In this document: piece by piece, positions 13,185 through 22,927 of the stretch
Numbering within the stretch: the stretch's first letter is position 1
How the letters are laid out: every line of letters begins with the position of its first letter
Assembly: GCA_029265715.1 (NCBI GenBank)
Contig: JAJUGZ010000043.1
Location: forward strand, 1-32,060
Source: Bacteroidota bacterium
Lineage (GTDB): Bacteria; Bacteroidota; Bacteroidia; Bacteroidales; Prolixibacteraceae
DNA length: 32,060 bases
Reading direction: 5' to 3'
Made by a program: the position numbers and the translations under genes
The notes under the pieces: generated by a model
Seen by the model: only the letters and a program-made list of their open reading frames with translations
Told to the model about the DNA's origin: nothing
The model's database searches: none

Positions 13185-14033
13185 ATGAAGAATTTAGTTT
13201 TAAGTGTATGTGTCTCACTGATCTGGCTGTCAGGTGTTGCACAGGTCAATTCAGTAGAAGCTTCAAAAATGGCGGTTAATCCGGCTGGAGAAGCTCAATC
13301 TTCGCAGTGGAAAGGCAAGCGCGTAGCTTATTTGGGCGATTCGATGACCCAAAAATCGTCTAAAGGGACAAATAAAATATACTGGGAATACTTGACAGAA
13401 TGGTTAGGGATTGAACCCTTCGTTTATGGTATCAGCGGAAACCAGTGGGATGGCATTTACAGGCAGGCAGTGAAATTATACGAAGAAAAGGGAACAGCAG
13501 TCGATGCTATTTTCATTTTTGCCGGAACAAACGATTACAATCATGGCATCCCGATGGGCAGTTTCTTTCGGGAAACAATAAAAGAAACCAACCACAACGG
13601 ACAGATGGTAACGCGAAAATACCGCACTCCGGTTGAGAATGACTCAACATTTTGTGGCCGTATCAACAAGGTGATGGCTTTCCTGAAAGCGAAATTTCCG
13701 GAACAGCAGATCATTATCATGACCCCGATTCACCGGGGACTTTCAACGTTTAGCAGTACGAACGTGCAGCCGGAGGAATATTTCGCCAATGGAGCTGGCC
13801 TGTACCTTGATGCCTATGTTGATGCGCTAAAACAAGGGGCATTAAACTGGGCTGTTCCGGTTATCGATCTGTACTCTGTAAGTGGTTTGTACCCGCTTGC
13901 CGATTCGCAGGTGCAGTATTTCAACAATGTCGATACCGATCGGTTGCATCCGAATGCAAAGGGCAATTACCGTTTGGCAAAAACGATCTTTTACCAGTTG
14001 CAGGCTTTGCCTTCTACGTTTGTTTTGGAATAA
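13185..14033 (+). CDS. Secreted SGNH/GDSL-type esterase
   Basis: This 282-residue secreted hydrolase probably removes acetyl groups from pectin. The signal peptide is about 1-20 (LSGVAQ). The SGNH blocks are all present: block I GDSM with nucleophile S53, block II YGISGNQ (81-87) with the oxyanion Gly, block III GTND (114-117) with the Asn, and block V DRLHP with D252 and H255 completing the triad. The ATG at 13185 is preceded by AAAGGAATAG, a fair ribosome-binding site. It follows the beta-helix gene by 65 bases and is the last gene before the first cluster of leader repeats. Many GDSL proteins in pectin loci are rhamnogalacturonan or pectin acetylesterases; the exact substrate here is inferred. 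Confidence 0.86.
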   Translation: MKNLVLSVCVSLIWLSGVAQVNSVEASKMAVNPAGEAQSSQWKGKRVAYLGDSMTQKSSKGTNKIYWEYLTEWLGIEPFVYGISGNQWDGIYRQAVKLYEEKGTAVDAIFIFAGTNDYNHGIPMGSFFRETIKETNHNGQMVTRKYRTPVENDSTFCGRINKVMAFLKAKFPEQQIIIMTPIHRGLSTFSSTNVQPEEYFANGAGLYLDAYVDALKQGALNWAVPVIDLYSVSGLYPLADSQVQYFNNVDTDRLHPNAKGNYRLAKTIFYQLQALPSTFVLE

Positions 14034-14086
14034 ATATCTGCAAAATATTGCAGGTGAAAAAATAGGCTGTGTTTCGTTCGTGGCGG

Positions 14087-14272
14087 CATAGGCTAAGAGC
14101 CATAGCTCATATCAACCGAAAATGTATAACTGGCTATTCGCTTGGCGGATTTCCCTGCGTGGATCTTTGCTACACTCCGATTTGCAGGCTCAATTTCATG
14201 TCGGTGCTAAATTGATTGAAAAGCAAAAGCTGTTACGAAAATTGTACGAACCAACATTGAAAATTTATACGG
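14087..14272 (+). repeat. Leader repeat unit A1 (degenerate long form)
   Basis: This is the most decayed copy. Its left arm is eroded (GCATAGGCTAAGAGCC), and the unit has the long middle also seen in unit C2 (CTGGCTATTCGCTTGGCGG and TTGATTGAAAAGCAAAAGC). It ends GAAAATTTATACGG directly before the ATGAAATAG of unit A2. The left edge is approximate. Confidence 0.7.
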
Positions 14273-14407
14273 ATGAAATAGCCATAAGAGCCGAAGCTCA
14301 TGCCAACCGAAAATGTACAAATGGCTATTCCATCTCGTTGAGAAACTAGTTTGAAAAACAGGAATAGATACGAAAGTTTTACAAACCTGCTTTGAAAATT
14401 TATACAG
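14273..14407 (+). repeat. Leader repeat unit A2 (135 bp)
   Basis: The unit begins ATGAAATAGCCAT and ends GAAAATTTATACAG. GATGAAATAGCCAT (14272-14285) pairs with ATGGCTATTCCATC (14321-14334), a 14-bp stem with one mismatch. The tail carries CGTTGAGAAACTAGTTTG. It is the same length as units C1 and C3. Unit A3 follows with no gap. Confidence 0.88.
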
Positions 14408-14504
14408 ATGAAATAGCCATGATTTGCAAACACCAGCAGATAATGAAAACAATAACCGGATCATGGCTATCCCATCTGACAACTTAAAAACAAATTATTT
14501 ACAG
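14408..14504 (+). repeat. Leader repeat unit A3 (97-bp short form)
   Basis: This short variant has longer arms: GATGAAATAGCCATGAT (14407-14423) against ATCATGGCTATCCCATC (14460-14476), two mismatches in 17 bp. Its tail ATTATTTACAG abuts the ATGAAA start of the GH43 gene at 14505. It differs from unit B2 at only 3 of 97 positions. Confidence 0.9.
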
Positions 14505-16004
14505 ATGAAAAAATATTTATTCGTTGTTGTTTTTTTCGCAGAACTTTTTGTGGGAGGAACAGAAGTCAGGGCTCAGTCTGTGGGGTTTTACCAAAATCCG
14601 GTTTTGGGGGGCGATTATCCCGATCCTTCCGTATTGAGGGTTGGAAAAGATTATTATATGACCCATTCGTCGTTCGAATATGTACCCGGATTGCTGATCT
14701 GGCATTCGACCGACCTGATCCACTGGGAGCGTATTGCGTATGCGCTGAATACTTATGTTGGTCCGGTTTGGGCACCCGATCTGGTCAAATACGGCGATAC
14801 GTATTACATCTATTTCCCCGCCGGCCGGAGAATCTGGGTTGTAACCGCAAAATCTCCGGAAGGGCCCTGGTCGGCTCCGGTTGACACCAAAATTCAGGGT
14901 TTTATCGACCCGGGGCATTTTGCCGATGCCGAAGGGAACCGCTACCTCTATTTGTCGAATGGATACACGGTCAAACTCAGTAAAGACGGTCTCTCGGCCG
15001 ATGGCGAACCAGTGCAAAATTACGCCGGATGGCAGTTTCCCAAAGAATGGAGCACCGAATGTTTCTGTTTGGAGTCGCCAAAGTCGACGATCAAAAACGG
15101 CTACTTCTATCAGACGGTGGCCGAGGGCGGAACAGCCGGGCCGGCTACAGCGCACATGGTTGTTTCGGCGCGGTCGGAAACGCCTTTCGGCCCCTGGGAA
15201 AATTCGCCCTACAACCCGATTGTGCATACCGACAGCCGGGCCGAACGCTGGTGGTGCCAGGGCCACGGCACGCTGGTTGACGATGTGAACGGCAACTGGT
15301 GGATTATGTACCACGGCTATGAAAAGTATTTTCAGACGTTGGGTCGGCAAACCTTGTTGCTGCCTATTGAGTGGACCAGCGACAACTGGTTCCGCGTTCC
15401 TGTAGGCGTGAACAGCAGCGGCAACCTTCCGTTACCGGCAGGCGCTCCGTTTTCTGCGGACGCCGGGCTTTCTGACGATTTTTCCGGAGATGGGCCGGGA
15501 TTGCAATGGCAGTTCTTCAAACAATATGAACCCGACCGGTTCGAAGTGAAAGACGGGCAACTGCTCCTTCGGGCCGAAGGTAATTCGTTTGCCAATAGTT
15601 CGCCCATGCTGGTGAATCCGGCCGACCGCAAATACGAGGTTCGGGTTGAATATACCATCGATCCGGAAACAACAGCCGGGTTGTGCCTGTTTTACAACGA
15701 ACAGGGGAACCTGCGCATTTCGGTCGATCAGGAGAAGTTCACGGTTTTTAATCAGCAATCGGCCAAAATCAGGGAGAAAAACACGTTGGGGAACCACGGT
15801 TTTCTGCGCATCCTGAATGATGAAAACGAAATCAGCTTTTACTACAGCGCCGACGGAAAGTCGTGGAACCGGGTAGAACGGAGCATTGATGCAACCGGGT
15901 TTAACCACAATATTTTCGGAGGGTTCATGAGTTTACGCGCCGGTTTGTTCGCGTTTGGCGAGGGGAAAGTCCGGTTCGATAATTTTATTTATAACAAGTT
16001 ATAG
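14505..16004 (+). CDS. Secreted glycoside hydrolase family 43
   Basis: A 499-residue secreted beta-xylosidase or alpha-L-arabinofuranosidase. The signal peptide is 1-24 (EVRAQ). The five-bladed propeller carries the GH43 triad: base D40 in DYPDPSV, pKa-modulating D135 in FIDPGHF, and acid E190 in CLESPK; WAPD (89-92) is also conserved. Residues about 345-499 form a beta-sandwich (FKQYEPDRFEVKDGQLLLR, FNEQGNLRISVD-like strands), as in two-domain GH43 enzymes. An in-frame ATG at 14424 would add 27 residues, but those are read from repeat A3 and also occur upstream of the unrelated esterase at 17482; the signal peptide starts cleanly at 14505. In a pectin locus the likely targets are xylose on xylogalacturonan or arabinose side chains. 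The subfamily was not resolved. Confidence 0.92.
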   Translation: MKKYLFVVVFFAELFVGGTEVRAQSVGFYQNPVLGGDYPDPSVLRVGKDYYMTHSSFEYVPGLLIWHSTDLIHWERIAYALNTYVGPVWAPDLVKYGDTYYIYFPAGRRIWVVTAKSPEGPWSAPVDTKIQGFIDPGHFADAEGNRYLYLSNGYTVKLSKDGLSADGEPVQNYAGWQFPKEWSTECFCLESPKSTIKNGYFYQTVAEGGTAGPATAHMVVSARSETPFGPWENSPYNPIVHTDSRAERWWCQGHGTLVDDVNGNWWIMYHGYEKYFQTLGRQTLLLPIEWTSDNWFRVPVGVNSSGNLPLPAGAPFSADAGLSDDFSGDGPGLQWQFFKQYEPDRFEVKDGQLLLRAEGNSFANSSPMLVNPADRKYEVRVEYTIDPETTAGLCLFYNEQGNLRISVDQEKFTVFNQQSAKIREKNTLGNHGFLRILNDENEISFYYSADGKSWNRVERSIDATGFNHNIFGGFMSLRAGLFAFGEGKVRFDNFIYNKL

Positions 16005-16020
16005 GAAAATTTGTCTGAAA

Positions 16021-17211
16021 ATGAGAAACGATCTGATTAACCGGGTTGCCCTGTTTATTATGTGCGTGGTTTGTGCCATTGGAAAAACATCGGGGCAAGC
16101 GGTAAATTATCCACCCATCAGCATGGCGCCGTTTGGCGACAGCATGCGGCATTGGTATGGCATTCACGACGACAGCAACATTGTTAACCCGGTAAAAAAC
16201 CAACCCCGGTATCCGGAGAGTGAAATCACGAAAATTGCCGATAATATTTTACTTTTTCAGCGCAACAACGGGGGCTGGCCCAAGAACTACGACATGCAGG
16301 CCGTTCTGACCCCCGGACAGGTCGACAGCCTGCTTAAAACCAAGGATATGGTCCATACAACCTTCGATAATTCAACAACCTATACGCACATCGGCTACCT
16401 GGCTAAAGTTTATACTATAACTCAGCAGGAGAAATACAAGGAGGGCTGTTTGAAAGGGATTGAATTTATTCTGAAGGCTCAATATCCAAATGGCGGATGG
16501 CCCCAGTACTTCCCGATTGAGGAAGGCGATTATAGCCGGCGCATCACGTTCAACGACGGGGCATATATGGGCATCATGTCCCTGCTCCGGAAGATTGTGG
16601 AAGGCGATCCGGATTTTTCGTTTGTTGCCGGCGGCCTTCGGGAGAAGGTGAAGCAGGCTTATGAAAAGGGACTGGAATGTATCCTGAACATGCAGATTGT
16701 CGACAATGGCCGGCTTACCGTCTGGTGCCAGCAGCACGACGAGGTTACGTTGCAGCCGGCCTGGGCACGTGCGTTTGAACCGCCAGCTATCTGCAATGGC
16801 GAAAGTGCCGGGATTGTTCTGTTCCTGATGAGCCTCGACATGCCGGATGAGCGGATTATCCAATCGGTACAGGCTGCCGTGAAGTGGTTTCAGGATTCAA
16901 AAATCTATAACACGCGCGTAGAAACAGTCAAGGCAAATCCGGAAGCCTCGCAGTGGCGCACCTATACAACCGACCGGGTAGTGGTGGCCGATTCGATGGC
17001 GCCGCCTATCTGGACCCGCTATTATGAGCCGGGAACCGATCGGCCTTTGTTTTGCGACCGGGACAGCAAATACCTGTATTCGCTGGCCGAAGTCAGTCGC
17101 GAGCGCCGTGTTGGATATGCCTGGTACACGTACGCCCCTCAGCAGGTTTTAGACGCCTATCCGGAGTGGCAAAAGAAATGGGCGCCAGGCGATAATGTGT
17201 TAGGACGCTGA
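16021..17211 (+). CDS. Secreted pectate lyase, polysaccharide lyase family 10 (short form)
   Basis: This 396-residue secreted PL10 lyase has a signal peptide of about 1-26 (KTSGQ). Motifs in order are NNGGWPKNYD (82-91), TTFDNSTT (113-120), AQYPNGGWPQ (153-162), TFNDGAYM (176-183) and PAWARAFEPPAI (246-257), where R250 is the likely catalytic Arg. This form is close in size to catalytic modules of characterised PL10 enzymes, whereas the enzyme at 8941 is longer and reads FNDDV. An in-frame ATG at 15955 lies inside the GH43 gene; the ATG at 16021 directly precedes the signal peptide and leaves 16 bases after the GH43 stop, so the two genes are probably co-transcribed from a message led by repeat A3. 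Confidence 0.93.
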   Translation: MRNDLINRVALFIMCVVCAIGKTSGQAVNYPPISMAPFGDSMRHWYGIHDDSNIVNPVKNQPRYPESEITKIADNILLFQRNNGGWPKNYDMQAVLTPGQVDSLLKTKDMVHTTFDNSTTYTHIGYLAKVYTITQQEKYKEGCLKGIEFILKAQYPNGGWPQYFPIEEGDYSRRITFNDGAYMGIMSLLRKIVEGDPDFSFVAGGLREKVKQAYEKGLECILNMQIVDNGRLTVWCQQHDEVTLQPAWARAFEPPAICNGESAGIVLFLMSLDMPDERIIQSVQAAVKWFQDSKIYNTRVETVKANPEASQWRTYTTDRVVVADSMAPPIWTRYYEPGTDRPLFCDRDSKYLYSLAEVSRERRVGYAWYTYAPQQVLDAYPEWQKKWAPGDNVLGR

Positions 17212-17251
17212 TTGATGTTTATGGTCATCCAGTTCAATATAGAAGAAACGA

Positions 17252-17384
17252 ATGAAATAGCCATAAGAGCCAACTCATATACCAACCGGAGATGTATAAA
17301 TGGCTATTCCATCTGTTGGAATTCAGATTGAAAAGCGAACACGGTTACGAAAATTGTACGAACCAACTTTGAAAATTTATACAG
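17252..17384 (+). repeat. Leader repeat unit B1 (133 bp)
   Basis: The unit begins ATGAAATAGCCAT 40 bases after the PL10 stop, has the right arm ATGGCTATTCCATC at about 17300-17313, and ends GAAAATTTATACAG against the ATGAAATAG of unit B2. Its tail is of the GTTACGAAAATTGTACG type shared with A1 and C2. Confidence 0.88.
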
Positions 17385-17481
17385 ATGAAATAGCCATGAT
17401 TTGCAAACACCAACAGATAATGAAAATAATAACCGGATCATGGCTATTCCATCTGACAACTTAAAAACAAATTATTTACAG
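17385..17481 (+). repeat. Leader repeat unit B2 (97-bp short form)
   Basis: This unit is nearly identical to A3 (three differences). Its arms GATGAAATAGCCATGAT and ATCATGGCTATTCCATC differ at one of 17 pairs. It ends ATTATTTACAG directly before the ATGAAA start of the esterase at 17482. Confidence 0.92.
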
Positions 17482-18477
17482 ATGAAAAAGAATACAATAA
17501 TATTGCTTTGGGTAATTTTTTTGATTGTCAATTTAACCCTTTCGGCCCAGCAACCTTTTCCTCCCATCCCGCGCGATACAAGCTATAACGTATCCCGCGT
17601 TTACCGGCAGGTTAAAGCTGATTTTCCATACGCCAGTCCGGCCCGGGACCTTTTACCTTCAGGTGTAACCGAAAGCCGGAATGTGGTGTATGCCACCTTG
17701 CCCGACACGCCATTTGGTAAGCGCGATTTGCACATGGATGTTTTTCGTCCGGAGAAACCGGGGAACTGCCCGGCGTTGGTCATGGTGCATGGAGGAGGTT
17801 GGCGTTCGGGCGATAAAGCGATGCAGGTGCCAATGGCTCAGCAGATTGCTGCTCATGGCTATGTGACTGCTTGTGTCGAGTACCGGCTTTCGCCTGAGGC
17901 GCTTTATCCGGCTGCTGTGCACGATATTAAGGCCGCCATCCGGTTTTTGCGCGCCAATGCTGCGGCGTATTCTATCAATCCGGGGCAGATAGCCATTTCC
18001 GGATGTTCGGCTGGCGGGCAACTGGCAGCGCTGGTCGGAATGACTTCCGGTGTTGCAAAATTGGAGGGAAACGAAGGCAGTAACGGGGTTTCTTCCGGTG
18101 TGCAGGCTATTATTGACATAGATGGGGTTTTGGATTTTACCGACCCGAACGAAAGCGGCAAGGATGATGATCCGGCCCGACCGTCGGCCGGTGCCTGGTG
18201 GTTTGGGGCAACGTTTAAGCAGGCTCCGGAAAAATGGATTGAAGCTTCTCCGGTTCAGTATGTCGGGAAAGCTTCGCCTCCCATTTTGTTTATCAACAGC
18301 GCTTTGCCGCGTTTTCATGCGGGTCGCGACAGCGTGATCGCTATATTGGACCAACATCAAATCTATTCTGAAGTACACACGATCCCGGGAACACCTCATC
18401 CGTTCTGGCTATTCCACCCGTGGTTCGGGCAAACCGTTTCTTATATGGTTGCTTTTCTGGACAAGCAATTTAAATGA
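17482..18477 (+). CDS. Secreted alpha/beta-hydrolase esterase, probable pectin acetylesterase
   Basis: A 331-residue secreted esterase with signal peptide 1-23 (LTLSAQ). The oxyanion motif HGGGW is at 103-107, the nucleophile is S176 in GCSAGG, and the likely catalytic His is H306 in GTPHPFW. The acid residue is not assigned with confidence. The pattern matches secreted acetyl/feruloyl-type esterases often placed in pectin and xylan loci. The in-frame ATG at 17401 would prepend 27 residues read from repeat B2 and is rejected in favour of the ATG at 17482, which starts the signal peptide. The CE8 gene follows 18 bases downstream; deacetylation and demethylation together would prepare homogalacturonan for the PL10 lyases. 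The substrate is inferred. Confidence 0.85.
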   Translation: MKKNTIILLWVIFLIVNLTLSAQQPFPPIPRDTSYNVSRVYRQVKADFPYASPARDLLPSGVTESRNVVYATLPDTPFGKRDLHMDVFRPEKPGNCPALVMVHGGGWRSGDKAMQVPMAQQIAAHGYVTACVEYRLSPEALYPAAVHDIKAAIRFLRANAAAYSINPGQIAISGCSAGGQLAALVGMTSGVAKLEGNEGSNGVSSGVQAIIDIDGVLDFTDPNESGKDDDPARPSAGAWWFGATFKQAPEKWIEASPVQYVGKASPPILFINSALPRFHAGRDSVIAILDQHQIYSEVHTIPGTPHPFWLFHPWFGQTVSYMVAFLDKQFK

Positions 18478-18495
18478 TCCTTAACTCGTTGAAAT

Positions 18496-19479
18496 ATGAA
18501 TCAATTTAAACTTATTGCGGCATTTTTTCTGTTCCTGATTTCGCTTGCAATGCGGGCTCAGGATAAATTTGAACTGGTTGTTGCACCGGATGGAAGCGGC
18601 GATTTTACGTCCATTCAGGCTGCCATTGATGCCTGTAAAGCGTTTCCCGATCAGCGGGTGACGGTGTATGTCCGGAATGGTGTTTATCACGAAAAGGTGA
18701 GAGTCCCGGATTGCAACAGCCGCTTATCGTTGATCGGAGAGAGCGCCGAAAAAACCATTCTTTCGTACGACGATTTTTTCGACAAGATTAACCGAGGGCG
18801 GAACAGTACGTTTTACACCTACACCCTGCTGGTTGAGGCCGACGATTTTTATGCCGAGAACCTGACCATCGAAAATACCGCCGGGCCGGTTGGTCAGGCA
18901 GTAGCCTTGCATGTGGAAGGCGATCGCTGTACGTTTCGCAATTGCCGGATACTGGGGCATCAGGATACGCTTTATACAGCCGGGCAGAACAGCCGCCAGT
19001 ATTTTGCCGATTGTTACATCGAAGGAACAACCGATTTTATTTTTGGCGCGGCTACAGTTTTGTTCGAGCGGTGCACCATTAACAGCAAAAGCGACTCGTA
19101 TGTGACGGCAGCCAGCACGCCCAAAGGAAAACCGTTTGGGTATGTCTTTCTCAACTGCAAACTAACTGCCGCTCCGGGAGTTGCCAAATGTTACCTGGGC
19201 CGCCCGTGGCGCGACTTTGCCCGGGTTGTTTACATCAATTGCGAGCTGGGGGCTCATATCCTTCCCGAAGGATGGGTCAACTGGGCAAAAACATCGCGCG
19301 ACCAGACGGCCTATTATGCCGAGTTCGGCAACAAAGGGCCGGGCGCCAATCCAACGAAACGGGTAGCCTGGAGCCATCAGTTGACACCGGAAGAAGCTGC
19401 AAAATACACCCCGCCCCATATCCTGGCCCCGGTCTTGCCGGGCGAGTTTAAGGTTGGCGACAGTTGCACGGGAAATTAG
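18496..19479 (+). CDS. Secreted pectin methylesterase (carbohydrate esterase family 8)
   Basis: This 327-residue right-handed beta-helix enzyme hydrolyses methyl esters of homogalacturonan, releasing methanol and exposing galacturonate for pectate lyases. The signal peptide is about 1-22 (MRAQ). All family signatures are intact: GQAVAL (133-138), GHQDTLY with acid D157, GTTDFIFG with nucleophile D180, and LGRPW with R236. The N-terminal VVAPDGSGDFTSIQAAID is typical of CE8. It is the last gene of the pectin locus, 18 bases after the esterase. It also serves as an internal reference for the altered homologue at 10576. Confidence 0.96.
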   Translation: MNQFKLIAAFFLFLISLAMRAQDKFELVVAPDGSGDFTSIQAAIDACKAFPDQRVTVYVRNGVYHEKVRVPDCNSRLSLIGESAEKTILSYDDFFDKINRGRNSTFYTYTLLVEADDFYAENLTIENTAGPVGQAVALHVEGDRCTFRNCRILGHQDTLYTAGQNSRQYFADCYIEGTTDFIFGAATVLFERCTINSKSDSYVTAASTPKGKPFGYVFLNCKLTAAPGVAKCYLGRPWRDFARVVYINCELGAHILPEGWVNWAKTSRDQTAYYAEFGNKGPGANPTKRVAWSHQLTPEEAAKYTPPHILAPVLPGEFKVGDSCTGN

Positions 19480-19498
19480 TTTTTTGAAGATTGACCGA

Positions 19499-19578
19499 AT
19501 CGAGCAGGAGGCAGGTAATTCTACCGACTGTCCTCTCTCATACCGCTGTGCGTATTGTCTGGCATACGGCAGTTCGTA
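19499..19578 (-). other. Possible decayed 3' end of a group II intron
   Basis: Read on the minus strand, this stretch has a GCCGTATGC...GCGGTATGAGAGAGG block, then an imperfect hairpin (about 19507-19535) around GGTA/TACC, then CTGCTCGAT. That order resembles domain V, domain VI and the 3' end of bacterial group II introns, as far as I recall them. The pairing is imperfect and there is no reverse transcriptase ORF nearby, so at best it is a relic. Confidence 0.25.
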
Positions 19579-19753
19579 AATTTTTAAAGGGTTATCGCGA
19601 TAATGCGTACCCAATCAATGAACAACCAGATTTAATGTGAGTTCGATGTAAGAAATAAGGGGTTCTTTTTCATATCGGATCTTAGCAACTACACTTGGGG
19701 CGAAGTTGTAAGTTTCTCTAAAAACTCAGAAATACTGATCCGATAAGCCAATG

Positions 19754-19805
19754 TTTGCCGGTCGGCAAATGGCACAGCGGTTTGGCAACAATTCGGGTTA
19801 ACCCG
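19754..19805. promoter_or_regulatory. Pair of operator-like palindromes
   Basis: TTTGCCG-GT-CGGCAAA (19754-19769) is a perfect 7-bp inverted repeat. CGGGTTAACCCG (19794-19805) is a perfect 12-base palindrome starting 24 bases later. They lie about 300 bases upstream of the permease. They could be regulator-binding sites; no regulator gene is adjacent. Confidence 0.35.
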
Positions 19806-20101
19806 GACCAGCATGGTATTGGGGTAGTTTGTGGCAATGTATAAACCACACATGTGATATTTAAAACGTTAACCGTGGTTATTGGTTTTGGCCCCTAAAC
19901 AAACTGGAATAAAAAAGGGCAACCAGAAATTACCTGCTAAATATCAAATCATTACTTGCGAAATTCAAATAATTCGTCAAAAAAAAAGATTGAGCAAGAG
20001 TTCTGTAAGCGAAACGCTTGCTCCTGAAACCAAAGTAAATTTCTTACCCATAAGTACTAACTTATTTTCTATTTTAGCCTCGTATTTTCAAACATCGTTT
20101 T

Positions 20102-21490
20102 ATGGCTGGTCAACGAAATCTGGTCCGCACGCTCGGCCTGAGCTATGTAATCATCTTTGTCATTGCAAACATCATTGGCTCAGGGGTATATAAAAAGATA
20201 GCGCCAATGGCTGCCGAGCTCCACTCTTCTGTTTGGATCCTGATGGCCTGGGTTGTTGCCGGGATTATTACCATCCTGGGGGCCTTAAGCAATGCCGAAG
20301 TTGCTGGCCTGTTGGCCGATACCGGGGGCGAATACGTGTACCTGAAAAAAATATATAACCGCTTTTTTGCATTCATCTATGGTTGGTCGCTGTTCACGGT
20401 GATCGAATCGGCCACCATTTCGTCGCTGGCTTACATATTTGCTCAGTCGTTAAACAGCATTCTCCCGATTCCGGATATTTTACCCTCGTTGCACGATGTG
20501 ACCATTGGCGGCATATTTTTCCCGTTTCAGGATTTTGGCGTTAAGCTGACTGCCATTTTGCTGATCTTGGTCCTGACGGCCTTGAATATTTCAGGACTAA
20601 AAAGCGGAGCCTGGGTCAGCAAAGCCATCCTGACGATGGTATTCATCGGGCTTCTCCTGATTGTTGGATTTGGTTTGACCAGCCACGTGGCAAAACCGGC
20701 TGACTTTATGAATTTCTCTGATTTGTCGAACGGGACGGTTACGTTTTCGTCCTTTTTCACGGCCATGCTGGCGGCCTTTTGGGCCTATCAGGGTTGGGTT
20801 TCAGTCGGATTTATTGGCGGCGAAGTGAAAGATGCAAACCGGAACCTTCCCAAAGGGATTGTGGCAGGCGTTTTTGTGGTAATTGTCATTTATCTCTTGG
20901 TAAACGTGACCTACCTCGCACTGCTGTCCATCCCCCAACTGGAGCAGGTTCATGCGGCCGGTAACCAGATTGCAGCCATCGAGGCTGTCAGAAGTTTCTG
21001 GGGAGCAGGAGGGGTTCTGTTCATTTCGCTCTTGATATTGCTTACTACGCTGGGTTGCACCAATGCCACCATTCTGACTGGCGCCCGGCCATATTATGCG
21101 ATGGCAAACGACCGCCTGTTTTTTCCCTCGATTGGCAAAATCAACAAAGCCAATGTGCCCGGGCATTCGCTCTTCTGGCAGGGGATCTGGGCTTCTGTTC
21201 TGGTTTTGTCGGGCACGTTCGACCAGCTGACCGACATGATTATTTTTGCCGTGTTTATTTTCTACGGGGCCACAACGCTGGGTGTATTCATCCTGCGCCG
21301 CAAGATGCCGGATGTACACCGTCCGTACAAAGTATGGGGATATCCGTTTGTTCCGGCCATCTATATTGTTTTTTGTGTGGTTTTGTTTTTCAACACCATC
21401 CTGACCCGTCCGCGCGAAGCAGCCATCGGGATGGTCTTGATTCTGACCGGAATTCCGGTTTATTTTTTACTACAGAAGAAAAGCGCCTAA
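20102..21490 (+). CDS. APC-family amino acid permease
   Basis: A 462-residue inner-membrane transporter of the amino acid-polyamine-organocation superfamily. About twelve hydrophobic helices are visible. The first carries the unwound-helix substrate motif IIGSGVYKK (24-32), equivalent to GSGIF of the family, and helix 3 begins near FFAFIYGWS. The segment VWGYPFVPAIYI near the C-terminus is typical of the LAT-like branch. Expected substrates are amino acids by exchange or proton symport; the sequence does not say which. It lies 620 bases after the pectin genes and has no evident link to them, so it is likely a separate unit. Leader repeats begin 118 bases after its stop. Confidence 0.88.
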   Translation: MAGQRNLVRTLGLSYVIIFVIANIIGSGVYKKIAPMAAELHSSVWILMAWVVAGIITILGALSNAEVAGLLADTGGEYVYLKKIYNRFFAFIYGWSLFTVIESATISSLAYIFAQSLNSILPIPDILPSLHDVTIGGIFFPFQDFGVKLTAILLILVLTALNISGLKSGAWVSKAILTMVFIGLLLIVGFGLTSHVAKPADFMNFSDLSNGTVTFSSFFTAMLAAFWAYQGWVSVGFIGGEVKDANRNLPKGIVAGVFVVIVIYLLVNVTYLALLSIPQLEQVHAAGNQIAAIEAVRSFWGAGGVLFISLLILLTTLGCTNATILTGARPYYAMANDRLFFPSIGKINKANVPGHSLFWQGIWASVLVLSGTFDQLTDMIIFAVFIFYGATTLGVFILRRKMPDVHRPYKVWGYPFVPAIYIVFCVVLFFNTILTRPREAAIGMVLILTGIPVYFLLQKKSA

Positions 21491-21607
21491 ATCATTGTCG
21501 AATACAGGCATCCGGGCCAAATCATCTTCCGGATGTCAAAAGATTAATAATTCAAAGGCCCCCGATTGGATGCTTTCCATTATTTTTGTCGACAATTTTT
21601 TAAGCAG

Positions 21608-21742
21608 ATGAAATAGCCATAAGAGCCATCGCTCATATAAACCGAAGATGTACAAATGGCTATTCCATCTCGTTGAGAAACTAGTTTGAAAAACAGGAAT
21701 AGATACGAAAATTGCAAGAAACAACTTTGAAAATTTATACAG
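21608..21742 (+). repeat. Leader repeat unit C1 (135 bp)
   Basis: The unit begins ATGAAATAGCCAT, with right arm ATGGCTATTCCATC at about 21655-21668 and tail CGTTGAGAAACTAGTTTG, and ends GAAAATTTATACAG. It abuts the ATGAAA of the 48-residue ORF at 21743. It is nearly identical to unit C3. Confidence 0.92.
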
Positions 21743-21889
21743 ATGAAACGAACATGCCACAGTAACAAAATTTATGGTGGTGGCACCAAAGGCCATGTAA
21801 ATATTAGTAGAGAAGCTAATTTTCATGGCATGGCGTTCCATAAGTACACACCTAAATTTCAATATTTTAACAACAATATTTACTTATGA
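21743..21889 (+). CDS. Small 48-residue ORF enclosed by leader repeats
   Basis: This ORF runs from ATGAAACGAACA to a TGA at 21887-21889 and encodes a basic, Asn/His-rich peptide (starts MKRTCHSNKIYGGG, ends YFNNNIYL). I do not recognise it, and it has no signal peptide or transmembrane segment. Its start codon sits exactly at the end of repeat C1, as for the three larger genes preceded by these repeats, and its stop overlaps the ATGAAATAG of unit C2 (TTATGAAATAG). This gene-plus-repeat arrangement looks like a cassette. It could be a real small protein, the remnant of a longer gene cut down by repeat insertion, or chance, since 49 codons without a stop is not rare in 147 bases selected by eye. 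Confidence 0.4.
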   Translation: MKRTCHSNKIYGGGTKGHVNISREANFHGMAFHKYTPKFQYFNNNIYL

Positions 21890-22045
21890 AATAGCCATAA
21901 AAGCTGAAGCTTATACCAACCGGGAATGTATAAATGGCTATTCGCTTCGCGGATTTCGCAAGCTCAATTCCATACCGGTGCTAATTTGATTGAAAAGCAA
22001 AGCTGTTACGAAAATTGTACGAACCAACATTGAAAATTTATACGG
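21886..22045 (+). repeat. Leader repeat unit C2 (160-bp long form)
   Basis: The unit begins ATGAAATAGCCATAA and has the right arm ATGGCTATTCG followed by CTTCGCGGATTTCGC, as in A1. It ends GAAAATTTATACGG directly before unit C3. A1 and C2 share both the long middle and the ACGG ending, which makes them a subfamily. Confidence 0.88.
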
Positions 22046-22180
22046 ATGAAATAGCCATAAGAGTCATCGCTCATACAAACCGGAAATGTACAAATGGCTA
22101 TTCCATCTCGTTGAGAAACTAGTTTGAAAAACAGGAATAGATACGAAAATTGCAAGAAACAACTTTGAAAATTTATACAG
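22046..22180 (+). repeat. Leader repeat unit C3 (135 bp)
   Basis: This is a 135-bp unit like A2 and C1, with arms ATGAAATAGCCAT and ATGGCTATTCCATC. It ends TTTATACAG immediately before the ATGAAA start codon of the L,D-transpeptidase gene at 22181. Confidence 0.92.
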
Positions 22181-22927
22181 ATGAAATTTCTGATCTATCT
22201 CTTTTCTTTATTTCTCCTGACATTTGGGGTCACCCCCCGATCGTTCCGGGATAAACAAAAATCGTATACCCGGGTCAGCGAAGCGTATGGAGAGAAAGAA
22301 AAGATTGTGCTAAAAACACTGGCAGAACATTCCATTTCGCGCGATAGCCTGCGGATTTATTTCCGGGCATTTAAAACCGAAAAAAAGATTGAGTTGTGGG
22401 GCAAGAATGCTTCCGACTCGGCTTTTACCCTGCTCAAAGAATTTCCGGTCTGTGAAATGTCGGGCGAAATTGGTCCCAAAAGGCGTTATCGCGACATGCA
22501 GGTGCCGGAGGGTTTTTACCATATTTCCGACCTGAACCCGTTCAGCAAATACTATTTGTCGATGCAAATCAATTACCCGAATGCTTCCGACAGCATCCGG
22601 GGAGTGAAGGGACATCTGGGAAATGAAATTTTTATCCATGGCGGTTGCCTCTCGTCGGGGTGCATCGCGATGAACGACGAACGGATTAAAGAGCTGTTCG
22701 TTTATTGCGTCGAAGCATACAACAGCGGCCAGCAACGGATCGACTTCACCATTTATCCGGCTTGTCTGAATGATGCCAATTACACAAAACTGACCAAAGA
22801 ATACAGCAAAGACAAAGATAAAATTAGTTTGTGGGCCGACCTTAAAAAAAGCTACGACCGGTTTAACACATCCAAAGTCCCGCCAGTGGTCAGGTTCCTC
22901 CCCGATGGGACACACGAAGTAAATTAA
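22181..22927 (+). CDS. L,D-transpeptidase (YkuD domain, YafK-like)
   Basis: A 248-residue exported protein with an N-terminal signal or anchor segment (about 1-18). The YkuD catalytic domain spans about 55-195. The active-site motif reads IHGGCLSSGCIAM (152-164), with catalytic Cys161 and His153; the same form is seen in YafK-type murein transpeptidases. Such enzymes cross-link peptidoglycan or attach or detach proteins from it through meso-diaminopimelate. The ATG at 22181 is the first in-frame start and lies directly at the end of repeat C3, which supplies the whole leader. The gene converges on the AraC-type regulator with 111 bases between stops. The family is clear; which transpeptidation or hydrolysis reaction it performs cannot be told. 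Confidence 0.9.
   Translation: MKFLIYLFSLFLLTFGVTPRSFRDKQKSYTRVSEAYGEKEKIVLKTLAEHSISRDSLRIYFRAFKTEKKIELWGKNASDSAFTLLKEFPVCEMSGEIGPKRRYRDMQVPEGFYHISDLNPFSKYYLSMQINYPNASDSIRGVKGHLGNEIFIHGGCLSSGCIAMNDERIKELFVYCVEAYNSGQQRIDFTIYPACLNDANYTKLTKEYSKDKDKISLWADLKKSYDRFNTSKVPPVVRFLPDGTHEVN

Follow-up and report, generated by a model that had tools for sequence, protein, structure and literature searches.

Short hairpin-bearing repeat units that end immediately before start codons in a 32,060-nucleotide contig of a Prolixibacteraceae bacterium (assembly GCA_029265715.1, contig JAJUGZ010000043.1; the whole stretch is called the window) are non-autonomous mobile elements that target ATGAA; they do not constitute a conserved regulatory leader. 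The window is one of the 200 contigs of a 4.2-Mb genome, referred to below as the subject genome. As a whole explanation we favor, with a probability of roughly 0.6, a superfamily of short elements that are mobilized in trans and directed to ATGAA by guide-dependent single-strand transposition, with the excess of copies at start codons produced by selection. A sequence-only reading of the window had offered mobilization in trans and a conserved regulatory leader as the two options; the former was supported by lineage-specific insertions, empty orthologous sites, an insertion into a transposase gene and insertions at ATGAA motifs that are not start codons, and the latter was not.

The dnaN gene of the subject genome is preceded by two units, which end at base -1. 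Starts of dnaN were placed by a pattern near ATGAAATTTG that favors ATGAAA, which located 25 of 30 fetched loci; the 24 located orthologs from elsewhere start with ATGAAA and carry no unit motif in the 500 nt upstream (303 nt in one case). Two of the unlocated loci were read directly and start with ATGAGA (L287) and ATGAAG (L288), with no unit in 150 nt. Similarly, three units lie ahead of the enolase gene (contig C31), and none is found in 500 nt at its 89% ortholog in genome G013 (L232). The remaining case is the sole PF01797 (Y1) transposase gene found in the subject genome (contig C73; locus L061, 1489-2080), the 3' end of which is split by a unit that sits between GAGTATG and ATGAAAAATATTTATGG; the G018 ortholog (76% identical) is unsplit and reads GACTATGATGAACGATATTTATGG. 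Because the empty sites at dnaN and at the split transposase gene show insertion 5' of a pre-existing ATGAA, we conclude that the units are mobile and non-autonomous. The last codons of the split transposase gene are displaced, and its frame continues into the hairpin to give a new C-terminus.

The units are abundant in the subject genome, where exact searches on the two strands gave 75 + 72 = 147 matches to ATGAAATAGCCATR (reversed-pattern control, 0 + 0) and 61 + 56 = 117 matches to the tail motif AWTTATACRRATGAA (control, 0 + 1), and a BLAST search with one unit, in which 40 of the 213 candidates were scored, gave at least 59 matches. For quantitative work we used a 1.215-Mb sample consisting of 79 fetched stretches plus the window; the stretches were picked for holding units, and densities in the sample are not genome averages. 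Seven profiles identified 228 units in 139 arrays. After removal of 6 arrays at sequence ends, 115 of the remaining 133 have an ATGA near the right end of the profile. The 18 that do not, many of which appear decayed or truncated, were set aside together with 12 in which the ATGA falls outside 0-3 nt, leaving 103 clean right ends. In this set, which is conditional on the presence of an ATGA, 102 ends meet ATGAA and one meets ATGAG, and the sixth base is A in 82. No array of the 139 sits within a called gene at more than 60 nt from both gene ends, and 2,912 of the 3,836 unoccupied ATGAA motifs in the same DNA are intragenic (gene calls came from a custom codon-usage script). The unit in the 3' end of the PF01797 transposase gene is a partial exception. 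Thus, the association with start codons that the sequence-only reading had proposed survives the comparison with gene interiors.

The association is not absolute. An open reading frame (ORF) of at least 80 amino acids begins at 74 of the 103 clean right ends; at the other 29 the ORF is shorter than 50 codons in 25 cases and has 50-79 codons in 4, so the earlier statement that the base after a unit always opens a gene does not hold genome-wide. Eight of the downstream proteins were tested against NCBIfam models (DnaN, enolase, AccC, RlmH, the cysteine synthase CysK, Dxr, RecQ and LeuB); all pass the cut-offs, several with alignments that begin at residue 1-3 of the protein, and these eight unit-led genes are therefore real. 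The ATGAA target and the lack of intragenic copies account for much of the association but leave an excess: 74 of 102 occupied ATGAA ends are start-like, versus 382 of 924 unoccupied non-interior ATGAA motifs judged by a rule near-identical to the 80-amino-acid rule used for array ends (Fisher odds ratio 3.7, P = 2e-9). The sequence before the start codon also differs, with a GC content in the preceding 30 nt of 25% for unit-led genes, 32% for other ATGAA genes and 38% for non-start ATGAA. Mean minimum free energies from -30 to +30 follow the same order (-3.53, -5.29 and -8.27 kcal/mol; n = 74, 214 and 470), and the weaker folding of unit-led starts relative to other ATGAA starts is significant (P = 0.001). 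A further comparison, of the left-flank composition of arrays with that of starts, used a background that included unit-preceded genes, and nothing is drawn from it. We infer that the excess at start codons reflects selection, the AT-rich tail serving as an open landing site for ribosomes, and perhaps a real site preference as well. The description of the units as a portable 5' untranslated region (UTR) with its own translation-start tail is accordingly apt for the outcome, an AT-rich and less structured start region, but not for the cause, since unit ends meet the start codon because the element targets ATGAA.

The units had been taken for one repeat family. They instead form several subfamilies that are mixed head to tail within arrays and range from about 93 to 191 bp: A (133-135 bp), B (97 bp), C (141-143 bp), E (about 93 bp), F (about 97 bp), the few copies of D, and X, which is A with an insert in the arm. 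A, X and B have common arms, and the arms differ among the remaining types. The subfamilies follow a common plan, in which an ATGAA start is followed by a hairpin, usually with TTCCAT as its second foot, an AT-rich tail and then the next ATGAA. Copies with an intact head that have TTCCAT as the second foot number 89 of 105 (A), 18 of 23 (X), 29 of 31 (B), 9 of 12 (E) and 6 of 12 (F); a count by reading gives 22 of 23 for C. Hairpins of the ATAGCCAT type have TTCCAT in 99 of 103 cases and TTTCAT in 4, and the two D hairpins have TTTCAT. The 18 near-full X copies in the sample carry an insert of roughly 25-55 bp (GCTTCGCGGATTTC...GCAAGCTCAATT) that breaks the descending arm of the hairpin. The 23 C copies have a mean pairwise identity of 95%, and C is the least divergent subfamily.

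Position within arrays is related to subfamily. Where E or F adjoins another family, the E or F unit is the left one of the pair in 15 of 17 cases, and A lies to the left of C 17 times and to the right 7 times (P = 0.064), C thus tending inward. The divergent and presumably old subfamilies are outermost, as if new copies entered beside the gene. Neighbors on opposite strands occur as a single pair among the 139 arrays, and this pair is itself a symmetric D hairpin. Contigs C5, C31, C40, C69, C91 and C112 of the subject genome end inside a unit or at its edge; therefore, the assembly may collapse copies, and the counts given here may be minimal.

The window itself holds nine units in three arrays, all on the + strand; the three clusters had been recognized correctly, with eight related units counted in them. 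The first array consists of a degenerate A-type unit with the X insert, a decayed head and an intact tail (14091-14272), a 135-bp A unit with hairpin and tail (14273-14407), and a 97-bp B unit (14408-14504) that ends at -1 of a gene at 14505 with a Pfam GH43 match (E = 7.6e-80). In the second, a 133-bp A unit (17252-17384) is followed by a 97-bp B unit (17385-17481) that ends at -1 of a BD-FAE esterase gene at 17482 (E = 7.3e-50). The third is a four-unit array in which a 135-bp A unit (21608-21742) is followed by a 143-bp C unit (21743-21885), a 160-bp A-type unit with the X insert (21886-22045) and a 135-bp A unit (22046-22180) that ends at -1 of a gene at 22181 with a YkuD L,D-transpeptidase domain (E = 7.2e-7). 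The remaining gene start that had been listed, at 21743, is the C unit, the ninth of the window; the other three starts have the Pfam support just given. Seven intact units share the start ATGAAATAGCC, the unit at 14091-14272 being degenerate as judged by its profile match and its sequence. The unit tails finish in TTTATACAG, TTTATACGG or TTATTTACAG, and the base after every unit is the A of ATGAAA, as had been described. The inverted repeat was likewise confirmed by folding as single-stranded DNA: compared with shuffled sequences, the bottom-strand hairpin gave z = -3.19 in an A unit (22046-22106) and z = -4.06 in a B unit (17385-17452). The stretch from 14505 to 19476 encodes, by its Pfam matches, a pectin-degradation set (GH43, pectic acid lyase, BD-FAE esterase and pectinesterase), of which two of the four genes are unit-led.

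Related units occur in related bacteria. With one unit as the BLAST query, matches were found in 14 of 61 genomes, the subject genome included (10 from the genus, 3 from the family and 1 from the order), and 21 stretches were recovered when GTDB contigs were scanned with a pattern, of which 18 bear the title Prolixibacteraceae and 3 the title Bacteroidetes or Bacteroidota. In five relatives scanned with one head pattern, 39 of 47 sites lead directly into an ORF of at least 80 amino acids, a figure that includes L360 and L361 (ORFs of 546 and 314 codons) and counts L337, which lacks ATGAA, as a miss. The other eight comprise one 61-codon ORF, one apparent E unit and six that remain, the one without ATGAA among them. 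In G011 and G017 a matching type of unit lies ahead of what is apparently the same gene (L321 with L334, and L336 with L346); judged from the sequences of these pairs, some insertions were probably inherited vertically. No match was found when viral contigs were scanned with one exact 19-base head pattern or when plasmids and phages were searched by blastn with one A unit.

Units lie immediately 5' of an ATGAA, or TTCAT when the bottom strand is read, that predates the insertion, and their orientation relative to it is constant. An inserted unit becomes the new leader of the gene, which stays unbroken, and several units can stack head to tail. Because many genes start with ATGAA and no copies are found inside genes, most surviving copies separate the start codon from the old 5' UTR. 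Read on the bottom strand, a unit has the order TTCAT, tail and, at the far end, ATGGAA-hairpin-TTTCAT. In the A and B units the foot pairs on this strand only, by way of G.T, and on the top strand it is left open by an A.C mismatch, an asymmetry that is the rule for the ATAGCCAT arm. In the mechanism we propose, the internal ATGGAA would pair with the TTTCAT at the 3' end of the unit itself, and a TTTCAT target could take the place of that end, through the G.T wobble. Such a foot, matching both its own end and the target, suggests a Y1 HUH single-strand transposase of the IS200/IS605 or repetitive extragenic palindrome (REP) type, which would cut after TTCAT at the site picked by the ATGGAA guide. 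A guide beside the hairpin foot selects the cleavage site at IS200/IS605 ends and REPs, according to the available excerpt of PMC6006769. Covariation in the A hairpins is uninformative for the main stem, the arms having been fixed by the pattern used for selection.

Several observations weigh against this mechanism. The best fold of the C unit (21744-21844) leaves the foot unpaired on both strands, so the guide model rests on A and B and on sequence likeness. Only one strong hairpin is evident in the A and B units. No cognate Y1 gene with units as its ends was found in the 91 Y1 locus records scanned (295 kb), some of which represent the same place twice and which take in part of the Y1 genes found. 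The transposase gene on contig C73 is flanked by palindromes of other kinds, GCCCTTTCAGGGC and CCCAAGGCG. G001, G021, G026 and G036 have a 66-74% ortholog of this gene and no unit match, and G013 and G017 have units and no close ortholog. The preference for the lagging-strand template expected of IS608-like transposition was not seen in the small sample of 25 non-start arrays. Finally, ATGAA flanks 71 of the 103 arrays on both sides, which would allow a 5-bp duplication; one array has ATGAA on the left and ATGAG on the right.

The strand counts with and against the leading strand, assigned by GC skew, are 14/11 for non-start arrays, 47/27 for start arrays and 509/418 for called genes. When the 91 Y1 records were scanned with the unit profiles and a loose hairpin search, units were found at the split gene only; a weak C-profile match at L303 (21 bits) and a palindrome at L099/L202 proved on reading to be other sequence. 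Two candidate mobilizers were rejected. The first was the PF01797 transposase, considered because a unit abuts it; the unit splits the 3' end of the gene at ATGAA, the orthologs, where read, keep other palindromes, and the presence of units does not follow that of close orthologs. The second was a gene on contig C60 (L298, 1351-1956, minus strand) resembling the REP-associated tyrosine transposases (RAYTs), which has an unrelated palindrome and no unit motif in 3.4 kb. It scores 62.8 bits against NCBIfam NF047646, below the cut-off, has no Pfam match and contains a ACCTGACAGGTTTTGAAAACCTGTCAGGTGT palindrome within its open frame. In this last respect it resembles the REP insertions reported for TnpA subclass 2.4 in the excerpt of PMC6006769. 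Visual reading of unpaired heads and tails revealed no long element with a gene between unit head and tail. We consider doubtful the further proposition that targeting is encoded by the unit itself (ATGGAA against TTTCAT), that insertion always leaves a leader tail, that the families stack on the gene-proximal side, that the enzyme differs from every known RAYT or TnpA, and that the start bias exceeds what an ATGAA target accounts for.

Other origins for the units were weighed against the same data. A cis-regulatory RNA leader conserved with these genes, of the riboswitch or attenuator kind, would account for the strong hairpin, its fixed place ahead of start codons and the plan common to related bacteria; however, the downstream genes are unrelated, dnaN is unit-led in 1 of the 25 orthologs with a located start, arrays mix several families, and units have entered both non-start ATGAA motifs and a transposase gene. 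In addition, an Rfam search of 13900-22400 gave no match above the gathering score, its sole sub-threshold match (24.2 of 62 bits) falling far below, and this origin is very improbable. The paired ATGAA flanks noted above would be explained if the units were miniature inverted-repeat transposable elements and their DDE transposase made a 5-bp duplication of an ATGAA target. Against this, a terminal inverted repeat is lacking, the two ends of a unit appearing unrelated when read; the left ATGAA is part of the hairpin, in which it pairs with the internal foot (A and B units); and one array has ATGAA on its left but ATGAG on its right. DDE elements also seldom require one fixed 5-bp target, and we regard such an origin as unlikely. 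An integron-like process, in which the folded bottom strand would be the substrate of a tyrosine recombinase that joins it to a short ATGAA core and so builds head-to-tail arrays, appears unlikely too: it fits the mixed arrays with their common core, the strand-asymmetric hairpin and the absence of a lagging-strand bias, but no cassette genes were seen inside units, and units are spread over many contigs.

The open frame of subfamily C bears on a final alternative, which is modeled on the mycobacterial interspersed repetitive units (MIRUs): after insertion of the repeat at a start codon, expression of the gene would be maintained because the ORF of the repeat is translationally coupled to it. 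The C unit of the window contains a 48-codon open frame that closes with a TGA overlapping the ATG that follows. In 9 of 9 start-proximal C arrays, an open frame with its own start codon runs to such an overlap, and this overlap, the ATGA target at start codons and the description of MIRUs in the available excerpt of PMC12548453 all speak for coupling. Among A arrays, however, only 2 of 43 have the overlap, and among B arrays 0 of 9; the counts for X and F arrays are 2 of 8 and 2 of 5. Among 16 equal-length C copies the frame has accumulated 13 synonymous, 44 non-synonymous and 0 stop changes, where 25%, 71% and 3% are expected, and 4 of 23 copies have internal stops. Thus, the frame evolves like non-coding DNA; the C unit was rejected as a real gene, its substitutions being about the neutral expectation, with no protein-level constraint, and maintenance by coupling seems quite unlikely as a general account.

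ATGAA-targeted transposition, our preferred explanation, would describe a mobile element that does not harm its host's genes, since it enters them at the only position where insertion leaves a gene unbroken. The leaders of core genes such as dnaN, enolase and dxr have thereby been replaced across a genome. Bacteroidota largely lack Shine-Dalgarno sites, and how translation starts in this phylum could be tested with the AT-rich tail, which is the same ahead of dozens of unrelated genes and for which empty orthologs provide the controls. The units also mark true start codons, which is useful to annotators.

In the open-licence PMC papers searched, we recognized no report of ATGAA hairpin units in Bacteroidota. 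Several known systems are nonetheless similar. In some IS200/IS605 members the end motif and the target motif are identical, and in the units, too, the last bases are the target motif, TTCAT. Insertion beside a short fixed motif, the lack of terminal inverted repeats and the logic of guide pairing are further likenesses to IS200/IS605 (PMC6006769, excerpt), whereas the units have one evident strong hairpin, no tnpA or tnpB seen within their less than 200 bp and no lagging-strand preference. REPs and REPINs with their RAYTs are likewise present in many copies, have a hairpin with a guide-like foot, are mostly extragenic and are presumably moved in trans (PMC6006769, excerpt). They differ in their foot, GT[AG]G rather than the ATGG(AA) of the units (ATGGAA on the bottom strand), and the units are about 93-191 bp long, form head-to-tail arrays, have a fixed ATGAA at one end and have no cognate RAYT that we found. 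Because no enzyme was found among the Y1 loci scanned, units and transposase do not match across genomes and no lagging-template preference was seen, we do not class the units as REPs or IS200/IS605 members, although they look as if they work like them. CGTC-tagged palindromic repeats, as described in the available part of PMC3733652, are also palindromic, tagged at one end and without a dedicated transposase, but differ in tag, size and placement at start codons.

MIRUs target the motif DTGA; no paper giving that target appeared in the literature search. The sequence-only reading had named no known family with the property of ending at start codons, yet repeats that insert there have been described: in the excerpt of PMC12548453, a review of translational coupling, mycobacterial MIRUs appear to be mobile, to enter start codons and to carry an internal ORF coupled to the gene. 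On that partial account, MIRUs are the closest precedent for the place of insertion, being likewise short and apparently mobile repeats whose insertion at start codons does the gene little damage. The units differ in that coupling of an internal ORF by a 4-nt overlap, as in MIRUs, is seen here in subfamily C only, and in having a bottom-strand hairpin foot that matches the target, an ATGAA target, mixed multi-family arrays and a host in another phylum.

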